Assembly (NCBI GenBank): GCA_015231515.1 | Contig: JADGBM010000028.1 | Span: forward strand, 1-32,704 | Direction: 5' to 3' | Source: Desulfobulbaceae bacterium | GTDB lineage: Bacteria > Desulfobacterota > Desulfobulbia > Desulfobulbales > VMSU01 | DNA length: 32,704 nucleotides | In this document: positions 17,160 through 32,107 of the stretch, one piece after another | How positions within the stretch are numbered: position 1 is the first letter of the stretch | Layout: every line of letters begins with the position of its first letter | Program-made: the position numbers and the translations under genes | The notes under the pieces: generated by a model | Told to the model about the DNA's origin: nothing | Databases searched by the model: none | Seen by the model: only the letters and a program-made list of their open reading frames with translations

Positions 17160-18248
17160 ATGCGCCAGTTTGACAATCATTGGCGTGATATCAATTTGTG
17201 TGCATTGGTGGTTTTAATGTTTCCAGATCAAGAATTTTTTCGTTTGAAAAAAGATAAAAGAAGGTCGCGATTTTCTAAAAAAATCATAGGTTGTTTTTCT
17301 TTAATTTTCATGATGCTATTGTTCTTTATTGAAACGAGCAATGGCGAAAAAATTTCTAAACCCCAAATAGCCTATATTGTTTCTGACCAGAACATTCCGT
17401 TCTGGGACATCATTTGGCGCGGCATCAGATCGAGAGCAGAAGATCTCGGTTATGAGGCGAAGGTTTATAGCGCAGAAAACAGTGCAAAGGCTGAATTGCA
17501 GAATTTAGTCAAGGCAATAAGAGATGGTGTCGCCGGCATTATTGTGTCTCCTACCAATTCTTCGGCCTGCGTTACGTTACTCAAACTCGCCCGGAATGCT
17601 GATATCCCTGTAGTGATTGCTGATATTGGCACAGAAGAAGGCGAATACGTATCCTATATCACTTCCGATAACCGAGATGGAGCTTATCAATTAGGCAAAT
17701 TGCTTGCAAGGGAGCTAAAAATTCATGGTTGGCAAAATGGTCAGGTAGGCATTATTGCCATTCCACAAAGGCGTGAGAATGGCAAGCAACGCACAGCAGG
17801 ATTTATCAAAGCGATGAATGAAGAGGGTATTCAAGACATGAAAATCAAGCAGCAGGAAACGTTTTCGCATCAGGAGACCTATAATTTCACCGCCGATATG
17901 ATTGAAACAAACCCCGATCTGCGAGCGATCTGGCTCCAGGGATCAAACCGATATCAGGGAGCTTTGGACGCCATCCATGCCGCTGGCAAAAAAAACGAAA
18001 TACTTCTCGTTACCTTTGATGCGGAACCGGAGTTTATCGAGTTGATCCCTGAAGGGATCCTGGTGGGGGCAGGCATGCAGCAGCCGTTTTTGATAGGAGA
18101 AAAGGCCTTTGACGCAATGGATAATCATCTCAAAGGCCGACCTGTTACGAAAACTCAACAGCTCCCGGTTCTCGTCATCTCAGCGAAAAATATTGCCGAG
18201 CAACTGCCAATGATTCGGAAGAAAGTGTTCGGTCTCGAAGGCCATTAA
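17160..18248 (+). CDS. Periplasmic sugar-type binding protein (RbsB/LuxP/TorT-like) paired with a sensor kinase
   Basis: The ORF has 362 residues. A basic n-region and a hydrophobic run (KKIIGCFSLIFMMLLFF, about 40-56) give an export signal. The mature part is a type I periplasmic binding fold (PQIAYIVSDQNIPFWDIIWRG, GVAGIIVSPTNSSACV, IPVVIADIG, TSDNRDGAYQLGK, and VTFDAEPEFIELI near the C-terminus). The start is uncertain. ATG 17160 has GGAG inside the palindrome, while ATG 17217 has GGTGG and gives a more normal n-region. No ABC permease or ATPase genes are nearby. The next gene, 19 bases on, is a hybrid kinase, so it probably presents a ligand to that kinase as TorT and LuxP do. The ligand is unknown. 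Confidence 0.85.
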   Translation: MRQFDNHWRDINLCALVVLMFPDQEFFRLKKDKRRSRFSKKIIGCFSLIFMMLLFFIETSNGEKISKPQIAYIVSDQNIPFWDIIWRGIRSRAEDLGYEAKVYSAENSAKAELQNLVKAIRDGVAGIIVSPTNSSACVTLLKLARNADIPVVIADIGTEEGEYVSYITSDNRDGAYQLGKLLARELKIHGWQNGQVGIIAIPQRRENGKQRTAGFIKAMNEEGIQDMKIKQQETFSHQETYNFTADMIETNPDLRAIWLQGSNRYQGALDAIHAAGKKNEILLVTFDAEPEFIELIPEGILVGAGMQQPFLIGEKAFDAMDNHLKGRPVTKTQQLPVLVISAKNIAEQLPMIRKKVFGLEGH

Positions 18249-18267
18249 CCTTTTACAGGGTGAGCAG

Positions 18268-20736
18268 ATGAACTATTCACTTTGCCGGATACTCGGCTTC
18301 ATCGTCGTCATTACCGTGATATCAGTTCTGGTGTTGGATTCGTTTGTTTTTTATCACTTGCAAAAAGGCAAGATTGTCGAGCATATGAAATTCCATGCAG
18401 ATTTATCACTGGAGACCTTAACCAATAACGTTCAAAATCTTGTTGAATCCTATTCCATCAATGAATATGAAAAACTTGTGTTGAGCGAGATGGCTCATGA
18501 AGAGTTCTTAGCCATTATCGTTCGCGATTTCCATATGGGCATGATTCTTGGGCAGGAAGCATATTTAACCGGCAAAATCAGAAATGAGGACGGCAGTGTT
18601 ATTGATTATGATCCGGAAAATCAAACTTTAACTGCTCTTTTGGAGTCATGTTTTCTCTCTGTAACTTCACCTCTGACCTCTGCTTCCGGGAAACCGCTCG
18701 GAGAAATCACCATCTGCTGCTCAGACGAAATCATCAAACCGGAACTTGTCAGAATCATCAGAGAGAGTCTGCTCAATATGGTGATTTTATCAACGCTGCT
18801 CATCGTATTGCTCTTTTTCGCCATCCAATATTTTGTCTTGAAGCCCATTTCAGAGATTATCATTAGCCTGAGCAGAACAGATAAAAACGGGATTCCTTCG
18901 GGAGAGTTTGTTGCTCACGGCGCCGTCGAAGTCAGAAATCTATGCATGTCACTCCAGAAAATGATTCATGCGGTCAAGAAATATCAGCAGGATTTGAAAC
19001 GCAACGAGGAAGAGCTTGAACTGCGTGTCGAAGACCGAACGACCGAACTCATATGCATGAACGATAATATGCAGTTGGAAATAGCAGAGAGAATGCATGC
19101 AGAGAGAGAACTTACCGAAGCAAAGAAGAAGGCCGAGGCGGCAAGCGAGGCAAAGAGCATGTTTCTAGCCAATATGAGCCATGAAATAAGGACGCCAATG
19201 AATGCGGTTTTAGGGATGATCAGGCTGGCCCTTGAGTCATCGAGAAATCCAGAACAGCGACGGTACCTGGAAACAGCCTTTCAATCAGCAGAGTTATTAC
19301 TGAGCATCATTAACGAGATTCTGGATTTTTCGAAAATTGAAGCGAATCAAATGGAACTCGATGAGGTTCATTTTGAATTAGAAAACCTGCTTCAATCGGT
19401 GGTGAAAACCTTTGACATGAAAGCCAGGGAAAAAGGGCTGGATTTGCGATATCATTTTCCGCCAGGCATAAACACGCAGTTGCTGGGCGATGAATACAGG
19501 TTGCGGCAAATATTGCTCAATTTAGTTGGCAATGCACTCAAATTTACCGAAACCGGAGAGATCAGCATTCATGTGCAAAGTGCCTCTGACGGCGCAAAGG
19601 ATGAAGGCATTATACTGCAATTCTCTGTGCAGGATACGGGCATCGGCATATCCGCAGAGGCACTGCCTGATATTTTCACCCAGTTCAGCCAGGCAGACAA
19701 CAGCATAACCCGAAAGTTCGGCGGCACAGGTCTTGGGTTGGCCATCTGTCAAAAGCTCACCAAGCTTTTTGGAGGTGATATCTGGGTTGAAAGTGAGCCG
19801 GGCAGAGGAGCCGCTTTTTATTTCACAGCGCGATTTCTCCAGGGTGACGCCGATCTTATTCAGAAAAAAGATGAAGCATTATCAATAAAAATTGTGCTGC
19901 CTCATATGCACATCCTGCTGGTCGAAGATAACCAGTTTAATCGTGATTTGGCGCAGGCCATTTTGGAAAGGCATAACCACACTGTCGCTCTGGCGGAGAA
20001 TGGCCTGGAGGCCCTTAAAATGCTGTCATCCAGCACGTATGATGTCATCCTTATGGATGTTCAAATGCCTGAGTTGGATGGCATCAGTGCCACCAAGCTG
20101 ATCAGGGCATGCGAGAGGCCAGCGCCTGTTGTGTCAGAAGACTACCGGGAGCTTCTTATTCAAGTCCAGAATAACCTGAAGGGGAAAACGATTCCGATTA
20201 TCGCCATGACAGCTCGTGCCATGGCCGATGACCGCAGGATATGCATTGAGTCTGGCATGGACGGTTATATTACGAAACCGTTCGCCCCCCTGGAGGTTTT
20301 CCGAACCATCGCTCAAGTTACAGGAGGAAAGGTCATTACTCAAGAAGTGAATGATGCCTCTGTAGATGGAGAAATTAAAGAAGGAAACATCGTGAATAAA
20401 CCGGGCCCCGTTGAAAAGGTTGAAAACATTAGAGCCCATTTAATGTCGACCTATAAAATATCGCCCGAAAAGGTTAACACACTTATAAACGCGGGCATAC
20501 AATCGCTTCTCGAATATTTGTCGCAGGCTGAAAATGCTTTGAAAAACGAGGATTTTGAATCACTTAAACGATCCGCCCACACCATGAAAGGCTCCCTTCG
20601 TAATATGGGGCTTGATGCTCTTGCTAACCTTGCTGAACGTATAGAAAATTTCCAAACAAGAAAAGGAGAGGAATCTCTGCAAGGTTTAACTCAGCAGCTA
20701 CAGTTTTTACATGAAGAGTTGGAGTGTATGCGATAA
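18268..20736 (+). CDS. Unorthodox hybrid histidine kinase (HK-REC-HPt), TorS/LuxQ-like
   Basis: The product has 822 residues. TM1 is at about 8-28, a periplasmic sensor region at about 30-168, and TM2 at about 169-190. A HAMP-like linker and a coiled coil lead to HisKA with H305 (ANMSHEIRTPMN). The HATPase domain has N-box LLNLVGNALKF, G1 DTGIGIS and G2 GGTGLGLAI. The receiver has phospho-acceptor D597 (VILMDVQMPELDG) and K670. The C-terminal HPt has H771 (RSAHTMKGSLRNMG). The full intramolecular H-D-H relay therefore looks intact. It is coupled to the upstream binding protein. The final HPt should pass phosphate to a separate receiver, and none with a DNA-binding domain lies in the window. 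Confidence 0.93.
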   Translation: MNYSLCRILGFIVVITVISVLVLDSFVFYHLQKGKIVEHMKFHADLSLETLTNNVQNLVESYSINEYEKLVLSEMAHEEFLAIIVRDFHMGMILGQEAYLTGKIRNEDGSVIDYDPENQTLTALLESCFLSVTSPLTSASGKPLGEITICCSDEIIKPELVRIIRESLLNMVILSTLLIVLLFFAIQYFVLKPISEIIISLSRTDKNGIPSGEFVAHGAVEVRNLCMSLQKMIHAVKKYQQDLKRNEEELELRVEDRTTELICMNDNMQLEIAERMHAERELTEAKKKAEAASEAKSMFLANMSHEIRTPMNAVLGMIRLALESSRNPEQRRYLETAFQSAELLLSIINEILDFSKIEANQMELDEVHFELENLLQSVVKTFDMKAREKGLDLRYHFPPGINTQLLGDEYRLRQILLNLVGNALKFTETGEISIHVQSASDGAKDEGIILQFSVQDTGIGISAEALPDIFTQFSQADNSITRKFGGTGLGLAICQKLTKLFGGDIWVESEPGRGAAFYFTARFLQGDADLIQKKDEALSIKIVLPHMHILLVEDNQFNRDLAQAILERHNHTVALAENGLEALKMLSSSTYDVILMDVQMPELDGISATKLIRACERPAPVVSEDYRELLIQVQNNLKGKTIPIIAMTARAMADDRRICIESGMDGYITKPFAPLEVFRTIAQVTGGKVITQEVNDASVDGEIKEGNIVNKPGPVEKVENIRAHLMSTYKISPEKVNTLINAGIQSLLEYLSQAENALKNEDFESLKRSAHTMKGSLRNMGLDALANLAERIENFQTRKGEESLQGLTQQLQFLHEELECMR

Positions 20737-20741
20737 GTGCG

Positions 20742-20849
20742 GCCAGGCAAGGTCGCATATTTTAGCGGGTGCGAACCCCGCCCCGGAAGGGCTAGCCACT
20801 CACCGGGTAGAATAAGCGACATTTTTTTGACTTTTGTCGGTGGCCTGGC
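20742..20849 (+). other. Nested structured element ending in a T-tract; possible terminator or regulatory RNA
   Basis: Nested complementary arms lie between two kinase genes: GCCAGGC (20742-20748) with GCCTGGC (20843-20849), and GTCGC (20752-20756) with GCGAC (20816-20820). Inside are GCGGG/CCCGC with a 7-base loop (20765-20781) and CCCGG/CCGGG (20782-20807). The last encloses the self-complementary GGCTAGCC (20790-20797). Seven Ts (20822-20828) follow the GTCGC/GCGAC closing stem, as in an intrinsic terminator. The multibranched layout is more elaborate than a simple terminator. I cannot match it to a named RNA family. Confidence 0.5.
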
Positions 20850-20854
20850 ATTAT
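20827..20854 (+). promoter_or_regulatory. Candidate promoter of the second hybrid kinase
   Basis: TTGACT (20827-20832) and CATTAT (20849-20854) are 16 bases apart. The start point would be near 20861, only about 9 bases before the ATG, which fits the absence of a Shine-Dalgarno sequence but is otherwise unusual. Confidence 0.3.
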
Positions 20855-20869
20855 TGAATATGTGAATAT

Positions 20870-22765
20870 ATGAAAAAACAATATATATATTTTCTCCTGA
20901 CAGTAACCAGTGCCTTTGTCCTCTCTTTTTATTGGGAGTTTGTCATTGAGCCACTCGAATCACTCTCTTTATTGAATACAGGTGCTGAGGTATCTAACAG
21001 AGAACGCTGGGAGCATGTTGTTATTGTTACCATTTTTTGTTGTATAGCGTTAATTTTCCCTACCTATTGGCTTGGTAAAACAGAAAAGGAGAAAAATACG
21101 GCCATTGGGGCATTAGACCAGCAAACTAAATTTTCACGGAAGAGCGAACAGGAATATAGGACTCTTTTTGAGCAGGCGGGTGACTATATCGTTGTATTAG
21201 AGCTTTCAGAAGAAGAAGGTCCCGTCATTGTTGATGCAAACCAGGCTGCTTGTGATATGCACGGATACCGCCGTGAAGAATTATTGGGCACTCCCATTAA
21301 GGACATTGATAAAGGGCTGAACAAGGAACAGATGCGAGTCCGCCTGGACAGGGTGATGTCCGGTGAAACCATTATATTCGAGACCGCACACCAAAAAAAG
21401 GATGGAACAATCTTCCCTGTTGAAGTCTCTACCAGACTTATGGAAACAGACGAAGGTCCACCTCGCCTTATCTCAATAGAACGTGACCTCACGGATCGTA
21501 AACAAAAAGAAATAGAACTGTGTAAGGCAAAAGAGGCAGCGGAGAAGGCCAATAAGGCAAAGAGTGATTTTTTGGCCAACATGAGCCATGAGATTCGCAC
21601 CCCCATGAACGCAATAATCGGTTTGAATCGTCTAGCGCTTGATACAGATCTTACCGATAAACAACGTCATTATTTAATCACCGTCCAGGATGCTGCTAAG
21701 TCATTACTCTACCTGTTTAATGATATTCTTGATTCCGACAAGGTCGAGGCTGGCCTGATGGAGTTAGAGAATAAAATCTTTGATTTGTCCCGCGTTCTTG
21801 ATTCAATTATTGATATTTTCATTGGAACAGCTAGGGAAAAAGGCTTGGATTTACGTCTTGAACTCTCTGGTAAGGTGCATACCTCTCTCGTTGGTGATGA
21901 ACTGAGGTTACGGCAGGTTCTTATAAATCTTCTTAGCAATGCAATCAAATTCACTGAAAGTGGTCATATAATTATTTCCTGTGAAATGATTTCCCAAAAT
22001 GAAAGTGAGGTGTTCATAAAAATTCGAATTGTTGATTCAGGGATTGGTATTCCTCAACATGCCCAGAAACTGATTTTTGATAATTTTTCACATGCCAACA
22101 GCAGCATGACCAGAACTCATGGCGGTACAGGACTAGGACTCTCCATTAGCGAACAAATAATTAAACTTATGGGTGGTGAAATGCGGGTTGAAAGTAAAAT
22201 AGGTAAAGGAAGTACTTTTTCCTTTACCGCCTCCTTCAAAAAATCCCAGGTTTCCCCAGCATCTGAAGTTCGCGAACAGGATAAAACTTTTTTGACATGG
22301 GCCGGCCCCCCGCTGAAAATCCTCTTGGCTGAAGACAACCCGTTTAACCAGGACCTGGCAAAGATTATTCTTGAAAAACAAGGTCATCACGTAGAAGTTG
22401 CCCAAAATGGAAGGGAAGCTTTAGGATTCCTTATTGATGCTGATTTCGATGTTATTCTGATGGATGTTCAAATGCCGATAATGGATGGTTTAACCACTAC
22501 CAGACTTATCCGTCGTTGTGAGACCACAAAAAATCCCATAGCCGGAGAGCAGCAGGAATTGCTCCAAAAATTGTCAAGAAAAATTTGTGCCGGTCATATT
22601 CCTATTGTGGCAATGACTGCCTATGCTATGAGTGAAGACCGAAAAAAATGTCTCGACGCGGGAATGGATGATTACGTCGCCAAACCTTTTGAGGAAGAGG
22701 AAATCTATCGTGCCTTGGCAAAAGTAACAACTCCCCCGGACCAGCAGAAACAGAGCCAATCGTAG
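20870..22765 (+). CDS. PAS-domain hybrid histidine kinase (PAS-HK-REC)
   Basis: The product has 631 residues. Two TM helices (about 5-22 and 48-68) flank a short periplasmic loop. A PAS domain is at about 95-210 (EYRTLFEQAGDYIVVLEL, HGYRREELLG, KKDGTIFPVEVSTR). HisKA has H240 (ANMSHEIRTPMNA). The HATPase has N-box LINLLSNAIKF, DSGIGIP and GGTGLGLSIS. The receiver has D532 (VILMDVQMPIMDG) and a Lys in AKPFEEEE. Unlike the kinase upstream it lacks an HPt. Kinase core and receiver resemble that neighbour, including a similar insertion of about 25 residues before PIVAMTA, suggesting a duplicated core. The first in-frame ATG is used and no ribosome site is visible. Confidence 0.92.
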   Translation: MKKQYIYFLLTVTSAFVLSFYWEFVIEPLESLSLLNTGAEVSNRERWEHVVIVTIFCCIALIFPTYWLGKTEKEKNTAIGALDQQTKFSRKSEQEYRTLFEQAGDYIVVLELSEEEGPVIVDANQAACDMHGYRREELLGTPIKDIDKGLNKEQMRVRLDRVMSGETIIFETAHQKKDGTIFPVEVSTRLMETDEGPPRLISIERDLTDRKQKEIELCKAKEAAEKANKAKSDFLANMSHEIRTPMNAIIGLNRLALDTDLTDKQRHYLITVQDAAKSLLYLFNDILDSDKVEAGLMELENKIFDLSRVLDSIIDIFIGTAREKGLDLRLELSGKVHTSLVGDELRLRQVLINLLSNAIKFTESGHIIISCEMISQNESEVFIKIRIVDSGIGIPQHAQKLIFDNFSHANSSMTRTHGGTGLGLSISEQIIKLMGGEMRVESKIGKGSTFSFTASFKKSQVSPASEVREQDKTFLTWAGPPLKILLAEDNPFNQDLAKIILEKQGHHVEVAQNGREALGFLIDADFDVILMDVQMPIMDGLTTTRLIRRCETTKNPIAGEQQELLQKLSRKICAGHIPIVAMTAYAMSEDRKKCLDAGMDDYVAKPFEEEEIYRALAKVTTPPDQQKQSQS

Positions 22766-22790: not shown

Positions 22791-22925
22791 ATGAATCCCG
22801 AAGCGGATAACAAACGACCGGAGGATTTCAACGGCAAGAACTACTTCGAACTTTACCCTGACGCCGACAATGAGGCAATTTTCCGGAAGGTTGTGGTTCA
22901 AACATGCAAAACTAAACGAATATGA
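22791..22925 (+). pseudogene. Orphan PAS-domain fragment (44 codons)
   Basis: A short frame reads MNPEADNKRPEDFNGKN and then YFELYPDADNEAIFRKVV before ending in TGA. The stretch GKNYFELYPDADNEAIFRKV is typical of the mid-portion of PAS domains in sensor kinases, which normally continue with further sheet and helix. Here it stops after about 24 recognisable residues. The stop overlaps the next gene's start (ATGA). It looks like the remnant of a deleted sensor gene. If translated, it could couple the heme-sensor gene. No Shine-Dalgarno precedes its ATG. Confidence 0.6.
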
Positions 22926-24475
22926 TCAAAAAAAACGAGTGGAGTGTCAGCAACAGAATTGCTGCAATTGTCGGGATTATTTTTGCCTTTTCGTCCATCG
23001 CTATGATTTTCAGCCTTAATTACTGGATGAAAAAAGATGCTCTTGATGAAGCGAGAACTCAGGCCCGGATCATTATCGACCAGAACCTGGCTGTGCACAC
23101 CTATTTCAGTAAACGACTGAAACCACCGCTTCTTAAGCTCCTTGATGCAGAAATTAAAAATGGCTACTTTGAGCCGTCATGGATGTCCTCCACCTTTGCC
23201 ATTGGCGAGATTAATAAGTACTCTGATATTTTCAGCGGCAACAACTATTACTATAAGGAATGTGCAATAAATGCCCGCAGTTCAGAAAACGAAGCCGATG
23301 CTTACGAGCGGGAGTTTATCGAAAAACTCAATATCGACCCTGACTTGATAGAGAACACTTCTGTTCGCACCGTTGACGGACATCCTTATTTTGTCGTTCT
23401 CCGGCGCGGGGAAACTATGCTGAGCTCTTGTCTTCGCTGTCATAGCACTGAAGACGCGGCTCCTGTCGGTTTATTAAAGTATTACAGTGAGAACAGGAGT
23501 TTTGGACGGCATGAAAACGAAGTTGTCTCCGCTATCTCAATCCGTGTGCCGCTCGAAATACCATTTGCTCATGCAAATACTATCTCTCGAAATCATTCCA
23601 TTTTTTTAGTTCTGATCTTGACCGCCCTATACGCTGTACAACTTTGGCTGCAAAAACGGCTACTCTTCTGGCCAATGAGGTATATAAGTGAAAAGGCCCA
23701 ACAAATTGCCGACGACCCTGACAAGCTTGGCCAAAAGATTCAAATCTCCGGCGGACGAGAATTGCACGAATTGGCATCGACCTTCAACGCCATGTCACTC
23801 AGTTTAAAGCAAATTATCGAGGTGCTGCAATCTAAGTCATCTGAACTCCTTGCCAAGAACAGTGAATTGCAGGAGAGCGAGGAAAAGTACAGGACACTCA
23901 TTGCCAATATCCGTGCAGCAGTGCTAGTCCATGACAAGGATACCCGTATCCTGAGTTCTAACTCTATGGCACAGCAGCTGCTCGGGCTTACAGAAGATCA
24001 GATGTTAGGTAAAGAGGCAACTGATCTAGACTGGCATCTTCTCCGGGAGAACGGCACGAAAATGCCTGTAGATGAGTACCCGGTCAACCTGGTGTTATCC
24101 AGCCGTCAGCCATTACGAGATTACCTCGTTAAAATATTCAGGCCCGAAATAAATGGGCTTTCCTGGCTCTTAGTTCATGCCGATCCGGTGTTTGATGACT
24201 CGACTGCCCTCAAGCTTATTATTGTAACCTTTATGGACCTCTCGGAGCAAAAAAAGATCGAGACATCATTGCGGGAAAATGAAGAAGAGCTTCGTATACT
24301 AAACGAAGAGTTGGAACAGCGGGTTTGTGAACGAACCAAAGAACTGGAATCGAAAAACGTTGAACTGGCTAAAGTAAATAAAATTTTTGTAGGCCGGGAA
24401 CTACGCATGGTTGAACTGAAGAAGAGAATCAGCGATTTGGAGATGAAAATCATGGAAGGGAGTGATGTAGTGTGA
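22922..24475 (+). CDS. Membrane sensor with periplasmic c-type heme domain (DUF3365/Tll0287-like), HAMP and PAS; no kinase domain
   Basis: The product has 517 residues. TM1 is at about 13-33. The periplasmic domain at about 40-220 contains the heme attachment motif C170-L-R-C173-H174 in SSCLRCHSTEDAAP, as in DUF3365/Tll0287-like sensors. TM2 is at about 224-243, HAMP at about 245-298, PAS at about 320-440 (YRTLIANIRAAVLVHDK), and a long coiled coil runs to the end. HisKA, HATPase, GGDEF and methyl-accepting domains are all absent. The stop overlaps the GTG of the following kinase by 4 bases. A redox or ligand sensor delivering its signal through a partner protein is the likely reading. Covalent heme needs a cytochrome c maturation system, and a CcsA is encoded at 31274. 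Confidence 0.88.
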   Translation: MIKKNEWSVSNRIAAIVGIIFAFSSIAMIFSLNYWMKKDALDEARTQARIIIDQNLAVHTYFSKRLKPPLLKLLDAEIKNGYFEPSWMSSTFAIGEINKYSDIFSGNNYYYKECAINARSSENEADAYEREFIEKLNIDPDLIENTSVRTVDGHPYFVVLRRGETMLSSCLRCHSTEDAAPVGLLKYYSENRSFGRHENEVVSAISIRVPLEIPFAHANTISRNHSIFLVLILTALYAVQLWLQKRLLFWPMRYISEKAQQIADDPDKLGQKIQISGGRELHELASTFNAMSLSLKQIIEVLQSKSSELLAKNSELQESEEKYRTLIANIRAAVLVHDKDTRILSSNSMAQQLLGLTEDQMLGKEATDLDWHLLRENGTKMPVDEYPVNLVLSSRQPLRDYLVKIFRPEINGLSWLLVHADPVFDDSTALKLIIVTFMDLSEQKKIETSLRENEEELRILNEELEQRVCERTKELESKNVELAKVNKIFVGRELRMVELKKRISDLEMKIMEGSDVV

Positions 24476-27147
24476 AAAACCTGTCACCTCATATTAGAGC
24501 CAATCGCACTTTCTACATTCGGTGTGACTGGATGGTATTGATGACAGCACTGGTCATTTTTCTCTCGCTAGGAGTCCATGCCCAAGCGCAGGATAACGGC
24601 AAGGTAGGAGCCAGAGAAGTAGTCGCGGCCTTTCCCAAAAATTTTCCTCCCCACTGCTTTCTGGACGAAAAAGGGGAGCCGGCCGGGTTTGCCATTGATG
24701 TCCTGAATCGTGTCGCAAGTATGATAAACGTAACGGTTAGGTATAAACCGGAACATAGCTTTGTTGAGGCGGTCAACTCATTAAATGACGGAACAGCAGA
24801 CCTCATCCCTAACTCAGGGGTCACAGCTGAACGAGCACTTGAATATGATTTTACCATTCCTGTGGAGACCCTTAATGTTGTACTTTTTATTCGGAAGACA
24901 TCCCATGACATTAAGGGTTTAGATGATCTGGAAGGTCGGAAAGTTGCCGTACTCCCTACCAATGTTGGTGAACAAATTGTCCGTGAACGGGGAAATATCA
25001 CAGGTGTGGTCTACTCTGAAATATCGACTGCTCTTTTTGATCTGCTGGCCGGACATGTGGATGGATTCATTTATCCAAAACCGGCGGTCCTGAAACTGGC
25101 AAGACAAGCGAGAATCGATGATCATTTTACAATTGTCGGGCCACCGCTTGCTGAGATCAAGAGGGCAATCAGGTTGCGCAAAGGTGATCCGCTGTTGGAC
25201 CAGCTTAATCCGGCTTTGAAACAATTCCTCCGGACCAAAGACTACCAGAACATTTATATGAAATGGTATGGGAAACCGCAACCTTTTTGGACAACGACTA
25301 CAGTTGCCTTGACAATGGGAGCTATCTTATCTCTTCTGTTGTTTTGTATGTTTGTCTGGCGCTACAAAAGTTTAGCCCATTTGAATATCCTGTTAAATAA
25401 AGAAGCTAGTATTCGGAAAGAGGTAGAGGGAGAGCTCCGGACTCATCGAGACCGTCTTGAGGAATTGGTGTCTGCACGAACCAGCGAGTTAACCGAAAGT
25501 GAAGAGCGTTTCCACAATCTTTCTGATGCCGCTTTTGAGGGAATTGTTTTTACTGAAAAGGGAAGAATTCTTGAAACCAATGAAACTTTTTGCTCAATGT
25601 TTGGTTATCAATCGTCTGAACTTCTTAGCATGGATGCCAGCGACTGTGTAACTTTTGAAGAAAGAGAAAATGTTAAAAATAAAATACTTTCAGACTACGA
25701 ACTTCCTTATGAGACAGAAGGTTTAAAAAAAGACGGAACCACCTTCCCCATAGAGGTTCGAGCCAAGATGTTCACTTACCAAGGGCGTTTAGCAAGTGTT
25801 TCAGCAATCCGTGATATCTCTGACAAGAAGAAAGCCCAAGAGAAACTTGCCGTAAGCGAAGCCCAGCTCAAGAATGCTCAGCGTTTAGCTCATGTTGGCA
25901 ATTGGTCACTCAATCTGCAAACCAATTACCTGGAGTGGAGCGATGAGATATATCGGATCTTTGAGATAGAGAAGAAGAAATTTGCAGCATCATACGAGGC
26001 ATTCCTCGATGCCATTCACCCAGATGATCGTGAGATGGTGAATAAGGCATATAGCGGATCTCTCACCTCGAAAATACCTTTTTCGGTAGAGCACCGTCTG
26101 CTCATGAAGGACGGCAGAATCAAATATGTCATTGAACAATGTGAGTCTTACTATGATAATAACGGAGATCCAACAAGCTCTGTTGGGACAGTTCAGGATA
26201 TTACAAAGCGCAGAACGGCCGAACTTGAGCTTGAAAAACTCAACGAGGAACTCGAAAAGCGAGTCACAGAACGTACAAGGCAACTCCAGATAACAAGCAA
26301 CGATCTACAGGACACCCAGCGTTCCCTAATGAACATTGTGGAAGATCTCAATGAAAAAAGTAGGGAGCTTGAAATTTCTAATGCCAAACTTCAGGGACTC
26401 GATAGACTGAAATCCTTGTTTATTGCCTCCATGAGCCATGAATTACGGACCCCGTTGAACTCCATTATTGGATTTTCAACCATAGTTCTTGACGAATGGT
26501 TCGGACCCTTGAATGAAGAACAGAAGACAAAGTTGGCCATTGTTCTCAGGACCGGCAAACACCTGCTGACCTTAATCAATGATGTTATCGATGTCTCTAA
26601 GATCGAGGCGGGAAAAATGGATTCCACGATCGAAGAGTTTGATATTCGTGATCTTGCCAACGAGGCCCTTGAACTGGTTAAAAAAGACATTGATGACAAG
26701 GGCCTTTCCCTACAGATTGAGGTGAAGCCTAAAAAACTTCATGTTGATCGGCGTCGACTTTTTCAATGTTTGTTGAATCTGTTTTCAAATGCCGTCAAGT
26801 TTACCGAGCAAGGGACTATTACCATGAAAACCTCCCTGCTTAAAGGAAGCTCTACCTTTAATGGCAAGGATTGTCTGCAAATTACCGTCAGTGACACCGG
26901 TATCGGGATAGCAGAGAAAGATCTGCCCAGGTTGTTTACTCCATTTTACCGTCTTGATACACCCTTACGAGTGCGAGAAAAAGGGGCCGGTCTTGGCCTC
27001 TATCTGGTCAAAAAGATAACAGAGGAGATCCTCCAGGGCGAAGTCGGCATGGAAAGCATTTACGGCAAAGGGAGTTCATTTTTTATGAAAATTCCACTTG
27101 TTGCACAAACAGGGGAGGAAAACGATGAAAACAGTTCTGGTGGTTGA
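24472..27147 (+). CDS. Sensor histidine kinase with periplasmic SBP_bac_3 domain and two PAS domains
   Basis: The product has 891 residues, starting at GTG 24472 with AAGGGAG seven bases upstream; the start overlaps the preceding stop (GTGA). A signal sequence is followed by a type II periplasmic binding domain at about 45-270 (FPPHCFLDEKGEPAGFAIDV, GTADLIPNSGVTAERA, and YMKWYGKP at its end). TM is at about 278-298. PAS1 is at about 345-460 and PAS2 (PAS_3-like, WSDEIYRIFEIE, IHPDDREMV) at about 465-590. A coiled coil leads to HisKA H656 (SMSHELRTPLNS). The HATPase has LLNLFSNAVKF, DTGIGIAEKD and GAGLGLYLVK. It lacks its own receiver; the stand-alone receiver that follows is an obvious partner. 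The periplasmic domain probably senses an amino acid or similar small ligand. Confidence 0.93.
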   Translation: MKNLSPHIRANRTFYIRCDWMVLMTALVIFLSLGVHAQAQDNGKVGAREVVAAFPKNFPPHCFLDEKGEPAGFAIDVLNRVASMINVTVRYKPEHSFVEAVNSLNDGTADLIPNSGVTAERALEYDFTIPVETLNVVLFIRKTSHDIKGLDDLEGRKVAVLPTNVGEQIVRERGNITGVVYSEISTALFDLLAGHVDGFIYPKPAVLKLARQARIDDHFTIVGPPLAEIKRAIRLRKGDPLLDQLNPALKQFLRTKDYQNIYMKWYGKPQPFWTTTTVALTMGAILSLLLFCMFVWRYKSLAHLNILLNKEASIRKEVEGELRTHRDRLEELVSARTSELTESEERFHNLSDAAFEGIVFTEKGRILETNETFCSMFGYQSSELLSMDASDCVTFEERENVKNKILSDYELPYETEGLKKDGTTFPIEVRAKMFTYQGRLASVSAIRDISDKKKAQEKLAVSEAQLKNAQRLAHVGNWSLNLQTNYLEWSDEIYRIFEIEKKKFAASYEAFLDAIHPDDREMVNKAYSGSLTSKIPFSVEHRLLMKDGRIKYVIEQCESYYDNNGDPTSSVGTVQDITKRRTAELELEKLNEELEKRVTERTRQLQITSNDLQDTQRSLMNIVEDLNEKSRELEISNAKLQGLDRLKSLFIASMSHELRTPLNSIIGFSTIVLDEWFGPLNEEQKTKLAIVLRTGKHLLTLINDVIDVSKIEAGKMDSTIEEFDIRDLANEALELVKKDIDDKGLSLQIEVKPKKLHVDRRRLFQCLLNLFSNAVKFTEQGTITMKTSLLKGSSTFNGKDCLQITVSDTGIGIAEKDLPRLFTPFYRLDTPLRVREKGAGLGLYLVKKITEEILQGEVGMESIYGKGSSFFMKIPLVAQTGEENDENSSGG

Positions 27148-27499
27148 AGACAACCAAGATAATCTTGAACTAATCAGCATAGCTCTGAAAAGAAGCGGCT
27201 ACAAGGTCATATCTGCTGAAACCGGGGAAATGGGTGTTGAAATTGCTGTTCAGGAAAGACCATATTTTATTGTCATGGATATTGACCTGCCCGGCATAGA
27301 CGGCTTTGAAGCTACACGAAGACTGAGAGCGTCCGAAGCCAATTGCGATATACCTATCATAGCCATCACCTCTTTTGCCATGTCTGGGGATAAAGATAAG
27401 ATTATTGGGATCGGTTGCAACGGATATTTTGAGAAACCGATCAACCCCCTGACCATCGTTGATGATATCAATAAGATACTGGAGGAACTTGGCAAATGA
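27125..27499 (+). CDS. Single-domain response regulator (CheY/DivK-like)
   Basis: The product has 124 residues from ATG 27125, preceded by GGGGAGG. An upstream in-frame start at 27098 lies inside the kinase gene and is unlikely. All receiver residues are present: E8/D9 in VVEDN, phospho-acceptor D52 (FIVMDIDLPGIDG), the Thr of AITSFA and the Lys of FEKPINP. There is no output domain, so it works as a phosphate shuttle or by protein contact. It overlaps the upstream kinase by 23 bases and the downstream kinase by 4 (ATGA), implying a fixed stoichiometry. Confidence 0.93.
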   Translation: MKTVLVVEDNQDNLELISIALKRSGYKVISAETGEMGVEIAVQERPYFIVMDIDLPGIDGFEATRRLRASEANCDIPIIAITSFAMSGDKDKIIGIGCNGYFEKPINPLTIVDDINKILEELGK

Positions 27500-29535
27500 A
27501 GATCCTAATTGTTGACGATAACATTGATGACCGAGTCCTGTTGCGGCACATTGTTGAAAGAAATGGACATGAGCCTATCGAGGCCAAAGATGGAAAGGAA
27601 GGCCTTGAAATTGCCGTACACCACCATCCTGACCTGATTATCTCAGATGCCCTGATGCCTGTTATGGATGGATTTGTCTTTCTCAAAAAAATAAAAGAGG
27701 ATGAAGTCCTGCGAACCATCCCTTTTATCTTTTACTCTGCCACCTATCAAGAAGATAAGGACGTGGCACTTGCTAAAAGGCTAGGCGCTCGCGCTTATAT
27801 TTTTAAACCCAAAGATCCCATTGAGTTGTGGGCTGAAGTTGAGCAAACACTTTTTAGTTGCCAGCAAGAGACCGCAGTTTCGTCCAAATTACTCAAGGAA
27901 GACGAAGTTGAATGTCTTGAGCAGTACAGCGAAATTGTTGCAACTAAACTCGAAGAAAAAGTTGCTGAACTGGAAAATGCCCTATGCCTTTGCGTGGAGT
28001 CTGAACGAGAGATACAAGAACAACATGAATGCCTGCAAAATGTCCTGGATGCCCTGACCCATCCATTTTACATCATCAATGCCAGCGACTATACAATTGT
28101 TCTGGCAAATAAGGCTTCTCATTTGTCAAGATATAAGGCCGGGATCACTTGCTACCAGCTTACCCACAATCAGAGTAAACCTTGTACGGGACAAGATCAC
28201 CCATGCACCATCATTGAAATAAAGAAGAACCTGGGTCCGGTTGTACTGAAACACACTCATTTAAACGCTGAGGGCGAGGCGAGAACTGTTGAAGTGCATG
28301 GGTATCCGATTTTCGCGTCCGACGGTACAGTCGAGCGGGTGATTGAATATTGTATCGATGTGACAGAACAGGACGAACTGAAGAGGCAGTTACAACAAGC
28401 TCAGAAGATGGAAGCAATTGGTACTCTCGCTGGAGGAATTGCGCACGATTTTAATAACATTTTAACTGCTATTCTCGGGTATTCGGAAATGGTTCTTGAA
28501 CAATTGCCGGATGGGAGCATGCTTCGGATGCAACAAGAACAAGTCATTAAAGCTGGAGATCGGGCAAAAGAGCTTGTTCGGCAGATTTTAGCTTTCAGCA
28601 GACAAGACAATCAGGAAAGGATACCAATGCAAATCCATATGATCGTCAGAGAGGCACTGAGCTTATTGCGATCCTCAATTCCAACTACAATAGAGATAAT
28701 CACAAACATCGATACAAAAGCGGGTATGGTGCTGGTGGATCCAACGCAGATTCATCAGGTAGTAATGAATTTGTGCACTAATGCGTATCATGCAATGCGG
28801 ATAACTGGCGGAACCATGACGATTAATCTGTCTGCTTGCCAGATTGGGAAAGAAGAATTACTTGCTCAAACTAAGATTTTATCTCCCGGTATCTACGTGA
28901 AACTTGAGGTGAGCGATACCGGTTGTGGTATAGACAAAAATACATTGGGAAAAATATTTGATCCGTACTTCACAACTAAAAAGAAGGGTGACGGTACCGG
29001 ACTTGGCCTGTCTGTAGTTAACGGTATTGTAAAGAACTATGGCGGATATGTCTCAGTGTCAAGTGCGTTAGGGATAGGTTCAAAATTTGAGGTGTATATC
29101 CCGAGTATTCATGCCGTAGGAGATGTCACAAAAACTGAGCAAAAAGGATACCCATATGGAACAGAAAATATTCTTATTGTGGATGACGATGATAGTATTG
29201 TGAACTTGCAGCAGTTGATGCTTGAAAACCTCGGGTATCATGTGCGTTCTTTCACAGATAGCAATGAACTTTTACAGGCCTTTAAAAGTCTGCCTGGTGA
29301 AGTTGATCTGGTGGTTACGGATATGACCATGCCCGAGATGACCGGTGCGAAACTTAGCCAAAAACTCATGGCGGTGCGGCCTGATATTCCTGTGATTATT
29401 TGTTCCGGGTTCAGTGAGTTGATCGATGCAGGAAAAGCTGAAGCTCTTGGAATCAAGGCATACCTCAAAAAACCTGTCTCAAAAAGAGATTTGGCAGAGA
29501 CAGTTCGCCGGGTATTGGATGAGAAAAATGGTTGA
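27496..29535 (+). CDS. Soluble hybrid kinase REC-PAS-HK-REC with Cys-rich PAS
   Basis: The product has 679 residues and no TM segments, so it is cytoplasmic. The N-terminal receiver has D51 (LIISDALMPVMDG). A coiled coil (about 140-190) leads to a PAS domain (about 185-297) with C219, C230 and C237 in CYQLTH...KPCTGQDHPC. HisKA has H317 (GGIAHDFNNILTAILGY), the NtrB-like variant. The HATPase has MNLCTNAYHAM, DTGCGID and GDGTGLGLSVV. The C-terminal receiver has D609 (LVVTDMTMPEMTG) and a Lys in LKKPVSK. An input receiver before the kinase suggests it is modulated by phosphorylation from another kinase, probably its operon neighbour. The Cys set may bind metal or respond to redox; that part is inference. 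Confidence 0.93.
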   Translation: MKILIVDDNIDDRVLLRHIVERNGHEPIEAKDGKEGLEIAVHHHPDLIISDALMPVMDGFVFLKKIKEDEVLRTIPFIFYSATYQEDKDVALAKRLGARAYIFKPKDPIELWAEVEQTLFSCQQETAVSSKLLKEDEVECLEQYSEIVATKLEEKVAELENALCLCVESEREIQEQHECLQNVLDALTHPFYIINASDYTIVLANKASHLSRYKAGITCYQLTHNQSKPCTGQDHPCTIIEIKKNLGPVVLKHTHLNAEGEARTVEVHGYPIFASDGTVERVIEYCIDVTEQDELKRQLQQAQKMEAIGTLAGGIAHDFNNILTAILGYSEMVLEQLPDGSMLRMQQEQVIKAGDRAKELVRQILAFSRQDNQERIPMQIHMIVREALSLLRSSIPTTIEIITNIDTKAGMVLVDPTQIHQVVMNLCTNAYHAMRITGGTMTINLSACQIGKEELLAQTKILSPGIYVKLEVSDTGCGIDKNTLGKIFDPYFTTKKKGDGTGLGLSVVNGIVKNYGGYVSVSSALGIGSKFEVYIPSIHAVGDVTKTEQKGYPYGTENILIVDDDDSIVNLQQLMLENLGYHVRSFTDSNELLQAFKSLPGEVDLVVTDMTMPEMTGAKLSQKLMAVRPDIPVIICSGFSELIDAGKAEALGIKAYLKKPVSKRDLAETVRRVLDEKNG

Positions 29536-29603: not shown

Positions 29604-29829
29604 CTCAACTTTCCGGGTTAATGTATTGTATGCACTTAATGGTATTTTTCGTAGGTTGGGTTACATTTCAATGGCCACCGGAATTGTTGGGTTTGAGGAA
29701 ATACAGACTATTTACTGATTTCCCAGCACCTCAAACCCAACAAACTTGGCAGTATGAAATAAAATCAACCCAACCTACGCGACAATAATCACGAAACAAC
29801 AACGGGTTATGCCACCCCGGAAAGTTGAG
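29604..29829. mobile_element. Nested inverted-repeat element (MITE-like, no ORF)
   Basis: Outer perfect 14-bp arms CTCAACTTTCCGGG (29604-29617) and CCCGGAAAGTTGAG (29816-29829) enclose a second element. That inner element is bounded by 13-bp arms CGTAGGTTGGGTT (29650-29662) and AACCCAACCTACG (29767-29779). Inside it are 15-bp arms TTGTTGGGTTTGAGG (29684-29698) and CCTCAAACCCAACAA (29729-29743). No reading frame of note lies within. The GTAGGTTGGGTT motif is a widespread dispersed repeat in bacteria. The layout fits a non-autonomous element, possibly one inserted into another, and it may also terminate the kinase operon. The rest of gap 29536-29868 shows nothing. Confidence 0.7.
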
Positions 29830-31273: not shown

Positions 31274-32107
31274 ATGGATAGTTCACAATTTCTCGGTATC
31301 ACAACATTTGCCTATTTACTATCAGCAGTTGCCTATGTAGGGATTTTTGTTTTTCGAGCCCGAAATCTTGGAATTGCGGCAACTGTGGTAACAGCCCTGG
31401 CTTTTATAATCAACACAACCGGAATAGGACTCCGGTGGGTTGAGTCTCACCAGATGGGGATTGGTTATGCCCCATTGTCAAACATGTATGAATCGCTGGT
31501 CTTTTTCTCCTGGTCGATTGCTATCTTTTATCTATGGGTCGAATATAAATACAAAAATCGCTTTCTTGGCGCTTTTGCCATGCCATTTGCGGCGCTGGCA
31601 ATGATACTGGCTGAAATGAAAAACCCTGCAATTACGCCTCTTGTACCTGCCTTACAAAGCAACTGGCTTATCGCTCATGTTGTAACTTGCTTCATCGGTT
31701 ACGCTGCCTTTGCAGTGGCCAGCGGCTTTGGCGCCATATATCTGATAAAAAATAGAGAAACGACAAATAATACGACTGGGAAATTTCTGTCACAATTGCC
31801 TCCTTTAAAAGCCCTTGATGACATTCTGAACAAGACTCTTGTTTTTGGATTTCTTTGGCTATCGGCGGGAATAATAACTGGTGCTATTTGGGCTAATTCT
31901 TCATGGGGAACCTATTGGAGTTGGGATCCTAAAGAAACCTGGTCGCTAATAACCTGGTTTATTTATGCTGCAGCCATACACTTCCGTTTCACAAAAGGAT
32001 GGACAGGCCAAAGAGTTGCATGGTTTTCCATCATTGGCTTCGCTTCAGTTATGTTCACTTACTATGGGGTTAATTATGTCCTTTCCGGACTACATAGTTA
32101 CGGGTAG
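31274..32107 (+). CDS. ccsA: System II cytochrome c assembly protein CcsA (CcmC/CcsA family)
   Basis: The product has 277 residues and about eight hydrophobic segments. The heme-handling tryptophan-rich WWD motif is present (SSWGTYWSWDPKETWSLITW). Conserved His residues occur in SNWLIAHVVTCFIGYAAF and AAIHFRFTKGW. With ResB/CcsB this protein exports heme and attaches it to CxxCH apocytochromes in the periplasm. No resB neighbour lies in the window, so the partner must be elsewhere. The ribosome site AAGGTG precedes the ATG. The window encodes one CxxCH client, the heme sensor at 22922. Confidence 0.9.
   Translation: MDSSQFLGITTFAYLLSAVAYVGIFVFRARNLGIAATVVTALAFIINTTGIGLRWVESHQMGIGYAPLSNMYESLVFFSWSIAIFYLWVEYKYKNRFLGAFAMPFAALAMILAEMKNPAITPLVPALQSNWLIAHVVTCFIGYAAFAVASGFGAIYLIKNRETTNNTTGKFLSQLPPLKALDDILNKTLVFGFLWLSAGIITGAIWANSSWGTYWSWDPKETWSLITWFIYAAAIHFRFTKGWTGQRVAWFSIIGFASVMFTYYGVNYVLSGLHSYG

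Follow-up and report, generated by a model that had tools for sequence, protein, structure and literature searches.

A cassette of four overlapping, intact genes on contig JADGBM010000028.1 of a Desulfobulbaceae bacterium (22922-29535, plus strand, in a window of 32,704 nt, the window being the whole stretch of DNA that was analysed) encodes a membrane sensor without a kinase, a histidine kinase without a receiver, a lone receiver and a hybrid kinase with an input receiver, here called P1 to P4. P1 ends in a short conserved tail, and we consider it probable (at roughly 0.6) that the cassette belongs to a class of split receptor/kinase systems, widespread and apparently not yet described, in which this tail couples the receptor to the neighbouring kinase. 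Observed directly were the domain content, the presence of the tail, its C-terminal position, the absence of a kinase from the tail protein, the conserved neighbourhood and the unique pairing of tail and kinase in the source genome. The principal features are as follows.

22922..24475, plus strand: P1, kinase-less receptor of 517 amino acids (transmembrane helix, Tll0287-like heme-c Cache domain, transmembrane helix, HAMP, PAS, long helix, conserved tail)
24377..24442, plus strand: core of the conserved tail of P1, residues 486-507, NKIFVGRELRMVELKKRISDLE, at the end of an unbroken helix (441-511)
24472..27147, plus strand: P2, histidine kinase of 891 amino acids with a GTG start, a periplasmic SBP_bac_3 input, two PAS domains and H656, without a receiver
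26296..26421, plus strand: signature helix of P2 preceding the DHp domain, SLMNIVEDLNEKSRELEISNAKLQGLDRLKSLF, the proposed docking site of the tail and the sole match in the source genome
27125..27499, plus strand: P3, lone receiver of 124 amino acids with an ATG start and D52
27496..29535, plus strand: P4, REC-PAS-HisKA-HATPase-REC protein of 679 amino acids with D51, H317 and D609

The gene calls bore out the overlaps described in the initial annotation (4 bases, GTGA; 23 bases; 4 bases, ATGA). Pfam likewise agreed with its description of P1 as a protein with a CxxCH domain, HAMP and PAS and no output domain, although the conserved tail at approximately residues 486-507 had been overlooked. 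P2 contains SBP_bac_3, two PAS domains, HisKA and HATPase_c, and no REC, in line with the earlier view of it as a kinase with its own binding domain; P3 is a single REC, and P4 has the order REC, PAS, HisKA, HATPase_c, REC, so that the bare receiver and the input receiver ahead of a kinase were also correctly recognized. The residues named for phosphotransfer (H656 of P2, D52 of P3 and D51 of P4) are in place. P2 is a sensor histidine kinase with intact H, N, G1 and G2 boxes, P4 is a hybrid kinase with an input receiver and intact D/H/D residues, and inspection of the cassette kinases found every catalytic box that was looked for. None of the four genes encodes a DNA-binding output.

P1 itself has no Pfam match to HisKA or HATPase and does not qualify as a sensor histidine kinase, ending in the tail. 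The first pointer to the tail was a search for relatives of P1, which returned two PAS proteins from another genus that shared only its end. The motif reads NKxFVGRELRMVELKxRIxxLE, followed by the stop, and in 62 sequences that were not selected by pattern its R and E are conserved at 100%, L at 98% and E at 95%. The distance from the ERT of the S-helix to RE(LRM) is 22 residues in 137 of about 150 tail proteins and mostly 29, 36, 43 or 50 in the remainder, and in kinases it is mostly 11 or 18. As the shifts among tail proteins are mostly multiples of seven, the coiled-coil register is kept. A resemblance of FVGRELRM to FLANMSHELRT raised the possibility of a degenerate DHp/H-box, which was rejected at an hhalign probability of 0.1% against HisKA. 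Membership of a known family was also discarded, with no significant or relevant match to the tail in Pfam, NCBIfam or the PDB, and literature searches covering split and kinase-less sensors, Tll0287, the Esn system and kinases with several sensors found no description of it.

In an AlphaFold2 model built from a 35-sequence alignment, in which the PAS domain and tail helix were good and the heme-Cache part poor, residues 441-511 of P1 form one unbroken helix with a pLDDT (predicted local distance difference test) score of 90-98 over most of its length; a model from the single sequence was of too low quality for use. A helix that ends a coiled coil could be a mere cap that stabilises the receptor homodimer, with the genes co-transcribed and their products sharing no complex, and signalling genes do cluster anyway. 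We hold this to be very unlikely, as the invariant RE and the nearly invariant E, L and K side chains go beyond the needs of a coiled coil, the tail hardly occurs outside kinase-less proteins, and a receptor that lacked coupling would be left with no output. With NKIFVGRELRMVELKKRISDLE, P1 ends in something other than ordinary coiled coil.

Nor is P1 a kinase that has lost its end. The closest paralog in the same genome, C121 (996 amino acids, 41% over 318 residues), is a full-length fusion of the heme-Cache domain to a hybrid kinase, which would favour P1 being a local truncation of such an enzyme, the very condition under which the initial annotation would have been abandoned. However, the tail of P1 is common to 200 other proteins and lies a few residues from the stop, and heme-Cache tail receptors occur at no fewer than five other loci (L060/L103, L062, L068, L079 and L121). 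Shared native tail and recurring receptors together rule out a local truncation, to which we give next to no credence. Judged from its sequence conservation, the tail is a native ending and not the broken end of a kinase.

The tail is found well beyond the source genome. Among 194 genomes of the same order it was carried by 25 when a single query was used and by 33 with a profile, and a scan of GTDB genomes yielded at least 431 candidate sites. These fall in Desulfuromonadales, Syntrophaceae, Nitrospirae, Bacteroidetes, Treponema, Ignavibacteriae, Elusimicrobia, Omnitrophota, Patescibacteria and archaea including Methanoperedens, where single taxon assignments may be contaminated because most of the GTDB sources are metagenome-assembled genomes (MAGs). 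A set of 202 distinct complete tail proteins came from Desulfobacterota, Nitrospirota, Bacteroidota, Spirochaetes, Patescibacteria and archaea; the median distance from the end of the tail to the stop is 4-5 residues, and 198 of the proteins lack an HATPase domain. Of the four exceptions, two are spurious tail matches and two are real (L211 and L219). In the latter (L211:9470-12700 and L219:2832-5525), an HATPase-bearing kinase core, NarX/LiaS-like by eye, is joined to a C-terminal PAS-tail.

When 100 tail proteins were searched against Pfam, neither HisKA nor HATPase was among the 25 commonest families. Their inputs are varied: PAS in about two thirds, HAMP in 22, GAF in 14, dCache in 13, a receiver in 11, SBP_bac_3 in 5 and Tll0287 in 3, along with CHASE, MASE3, 5TM-5TMR and others. 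Several of the genes directly upstream of tail genes encode separate periplasmic binding proteins, some with a 4-base overlap. P1 fits the proposed class, which is defined by a variable input, a coiled coil and RE(L/F)(R/K)(M/I)xELK at most about 20 residues from the stop, without a kinase. Proteins of the form REC-PAS-TAIL, with a receiver, presumably phosphorylated, as input, adjoin hybrid kinases at L078, L082, L085, L059 and L060, which suggests phosphorylation as a possible input and kinase-to-kinase cascades.

The neighbourhood of the tail genes is conserved. A kinase lies downstream in the same operon for 116 of 163 tail genes (71%), against 5 of 155 random genes (3%) drawn from the same or related genomes, and is the immediately next gene for 58 (random genes, 1). 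In 60 of the 163 cases a receiver-less kinase and then a lone receiver were seen, with a receiver-first protein in addition in 35, and neither arrangement occurred among the 155 random genes. Fisher p values for these counts were 7.5e-41 (downstream kinase) and also 5.7e-21, and with the pattern-selected set left out the downstream kinase was still present for 39 of 54 tail genes (p 1.8e-24). In total, 21 distinct triads of kinase, REC and REC-first protein were found; 18 have a tail gene no more than three genes upstream, and in many the genes overlap by similarly short stretches. The complete order of tail receptor, receiver-less kinase, lone REC and REC-PAS-HK(-REC) protein is repeated at about 20 loci in different phyla.

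The initial annotation had inferred a fixed complex and a layered relay that would integrate periplasmic redox or heme state with a small-molecule ligand, a reading that is partly supported. The four-gene order stood up as a conserved unit (the 21 triads, 18 with an upstream tail receptor) and recurs in other genomes, which answers the concern that the neighbours might not be conserved, whereas the pairing of a heme sensor with an SBP kinase proved not to be specific. The nearest match, at L062 in another genus of the same family, encodes a heme-Cache-PAS-GAF-tail receptor, a kinase, a REC and a REC-PAS-HK-REC protein (HK, histidine kinase), with overlaps of 4 bases between receptor and kinase and 4 bases between kinase and REC. 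A tail receptor stands with an SBP_bac_3 kinase again at L076, L109 and L209. The heme sensor and SBP kinase are a local combination of interchangeable inputs, and the kinase's own input varies.

A signature helix preceding the DHp domain is common among the partner kinases that lack a receiver. It was present in 45 of 74 partner kinases and in 7 of 73 control kinases (p 3.8e-11), 5 of the 7 being also in tail loci. Among the 194 genomes, the tail occurred in 33, the signature in 30 and both in 20 (expected 5.1), and a tail lay on the same contig for 17 of 34 signature kinases and for 14 of the best 15; the p value for this co-occurrence serves only as a guide because related genomes are not independent. 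The source genome has a single tail and a single signature kinase among approximately 70 HisKA kinases, and these are the overlapping genes of P1 and P2.

Several results weigh against coupling of the tail to the neighbouring kinase. About 40% of partner kinases, many of them hybrid or Patescibacteria kinases, lack the signature; no kinase lies near 29% of the tail genes, some of which form orphan arrays such as that at L121; and the random genes of the neighbourhood comparison were not matched for signalling genes. Distance-matrix analysis of co-evolution between tail and signature helix at first gave a partial r of 0.33 (p 0.001), which fell to 0.12 (p 0.09) with the DHp domain as control, so that the signal was not specific to the two. 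The kinases without a signature and the orphan arrays would also be expected if the tail docked elsewhere than on the receiver-less kinase, whether on the lone receiver, on the REC-PAS-HK-REC protein or, in a lattice, on further tail receptors, and signature-less hybrid kinases adjoin REC-PAS-TAIL proteins as well (L078 and L085). We nevertheless judge docking elsewhere to be unlikely, given that the kinase is the most constant neighbour, directly next in 58 of 163 cases, and that tail genomes and signature-kinase genomes coincide.

For the docking of the tail and its register, the direction of control, the order of phosphotransfer and the ligands, we infer the following scheme. P1 would act as the kinase-less receptor subunit in the membrane, from which the signal would run by way of HAMP, PAS and a single continuous coiled coil to the conserved C-terminal tail. 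The tail would most likely pack in register against the pre-DHp signature helix of P2, in a hetero-oligomer of homodimers, and this packing would shift the balance between the kinase and phosphatase activities of P2, which may add its own small-molecule input through SBP_bac_3. Phosphate could then pass from H656 of P2 to D52 of P3, D51 of P4 or both, and the D51 input receiver of P4 would gate a second hybrid kinase (H317 to D609). Beyond P2, the order of the relay is drawn from general knowledge of two-component systems.

Control of the kinase might also be negative. In multikinase networks of the RetS/GacS type, coiled-coil and DHp contacts give a further sensor protein control over a kinase, and tail receptors could similarly be antagonists that silence the kinase in mixed coiled-coil dimers. 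The hhalign comparison with the kinase, where the match was limited to the S-helix and PAS-coil segment, shows a framework common to receptor and kinase, the receptor lacking the enzyme, as an antagonist might. However, RetS and RetS-like inhibitors retain the DHp and catalytic domains, whereas the P1 tail is unrelated to HisKA (hhalign, 0.1%), and several receptors per kinase would mean constant silencing. Antagonism of this kind is in our estimation distinctly improbable.

Coupling of a kinase-less receptor to a separate kinase invites comparison with the arrangement of methyl-accepting chemotaxis proteins (MCPs), CheW and CheA, exemplified by EsnABC of Geobacter sulfurreducens (PMC5585712); there, too, many kinase-less receptors with variable inputs and a common C-terminal part serve a separate kinase and stand-alone receivers. 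The cassette differs in having no MCP signalling hairpin, CheW or CheA, in a tail of only about 22 conserved residues, and in a kinase of the ordinary HisKA type with its own sensors. Pfam found no match to the MCP signal domain, CheW or CheA P1/P4/P5 in the four cassette proteins, and MCPsignal was not among the families listed for the 100 tail proteins; the Esn system, being of the chemotaxis type, was ruled out as an already described member of the class. Split histidine kinases (Hik36-Hik43, PMC7656254; modelled in PMC3591291) similarly distribute kinase function over more than one protein, but there it is the kinase core or the phosphotransfer parts that are divided, whereas P2 has both the DHp and the catalytic domain (Pfam) and only the sensor is separate. 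Short LOV proteins (PDB 7r5n, 5j3w) resemble P1 in combining PAS with a C-terminal helix and no effector, and the tail motif, membrane input and linked kinase may set the P1 system apart from them.

The input domain of P1 belongs to the sCache_heme (DUF3365, Tll0287-like) family, with two features of note.

23033..23551, plus strand: Tll0287-like/sCache_heme domain of P1, residues 38-210 (Pfam PF11845, E 2.3e-32; genome match 6.7e-33)
23429..23443, plus strand: CLRCH, residues 170-174 of P1, the motif for covalent attachment of heme c, seen in the sequence

The match to PF11845 scored 112.9 bits against a cut-off of 24.1, and CLRCH supplies the CxxCH of the family. A recent preprint (PMC12889525) redefined Tll0287 domains as heme-binding Cache domains and reported that a HAMP-linked one bound nitric oxide (NO) and resembled an NO sensor in its behaviour, and that one standing alone resembled a redox protein. 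As P1 is of the HAMP-linked membrane type, NO is a first guess for its ligand, and the periplasmic heme-c Cache domain is probably a sensor of NO or of redox state. The preprint text consulted describes the domain on its own or fused to kinases, MCPs and GGDEF/EAL outputs, and does not mention a HAMP-PAS-tail receptor without an output. The fusion in C121 indicates that the domain moves between formats. Its locus (L011:3718-8490, G000 C121) encodes a REC-NMT1-like protein, the 996-amino-acid heme-Cache hybrid kinase and a lone REC, a fused version of the sensor. A cytochrome c assembly gene (CcsB-like, PF01578) lies near the heme-c sensor at 31274-32107, which is probably a coincidence.

The wider surroundings of the cassette contain further signalling genes. 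A same-strand run 5' of it (17160-22765) encodes a Peripla_BP_4 binding protein, an HK-REC-Hpt protein (822 amino acids), which has the only Hpt domain seen at the locus, and a PAS-HK-REC protein (631 amino acids); with gaps of 19, 133 and 156 bases, this run and the cassette may form a single transcript. Just 3' of the cassette is a palindromic repeat of approximately 130 bases (29650-29779) with perfect 13-base inverted ends, CGTAGGTTGGGTT, which has five copies at 99% in the genome, two of them full-length, and resembles a miniature inverted-repeat transposable element. Around it lies a larger inverted repeat with 14-base arms (29604-29617 / 29816-29829), which gives the impression that the element was inserted into a hairpin. 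No Rfam element was found in the window.

Several loci hold 3-7 tail genes. In Geobacter sp. OR-1 (contig NZ_BAZF01000016.1), one triad of kinase, REC and REC-HK-REC stands behind several tail receptors. In MAGs, Patescibacteria and archaea among them, arrays of four to seven tail genes (L146, L083, L090 and L121) stand ahead of one kinase or, as at L121, have no kinase in reach. Loci with several receptors per kinase, with up to seven tail genes and including that of Geobacter sp. OR-1, fit a division of labour between receptor and kinase like that of MCPs and CheA. It is conceivable, at somewhat less than even odds, that these systems represent a third general design of prokaryotic transmembrane signalling, next to sensor kinases of the fused type and arrays of chemoreceptors with CheA. 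In this design, present in archaea and several phyla of bacteria, a superfamily of interchangeable kinase-less receptors would feed a shared relay of kinase, REC and hybrid kinase by means of a short coupling tail at the C terminus. The inputs of such a design would include heme/NO, solutes, periplasmic binding proteins and even phosphorylated receivers.

Proteins like P1 match sensor families only, and no output is known for them. Should the tail prove to be a coupling element, a predicted partner would be available for hundreds of such orphan sensors, the sharing of one ordinary histidine kinase by several receptors could be tested with small coiled-coil peptides, and the tail would offer a plug-in format for sensor engineering. 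It would also place heme-c Cache sensing of NO or redox state within the multi-input relays of anaerobes and methane-oxidising archaea.

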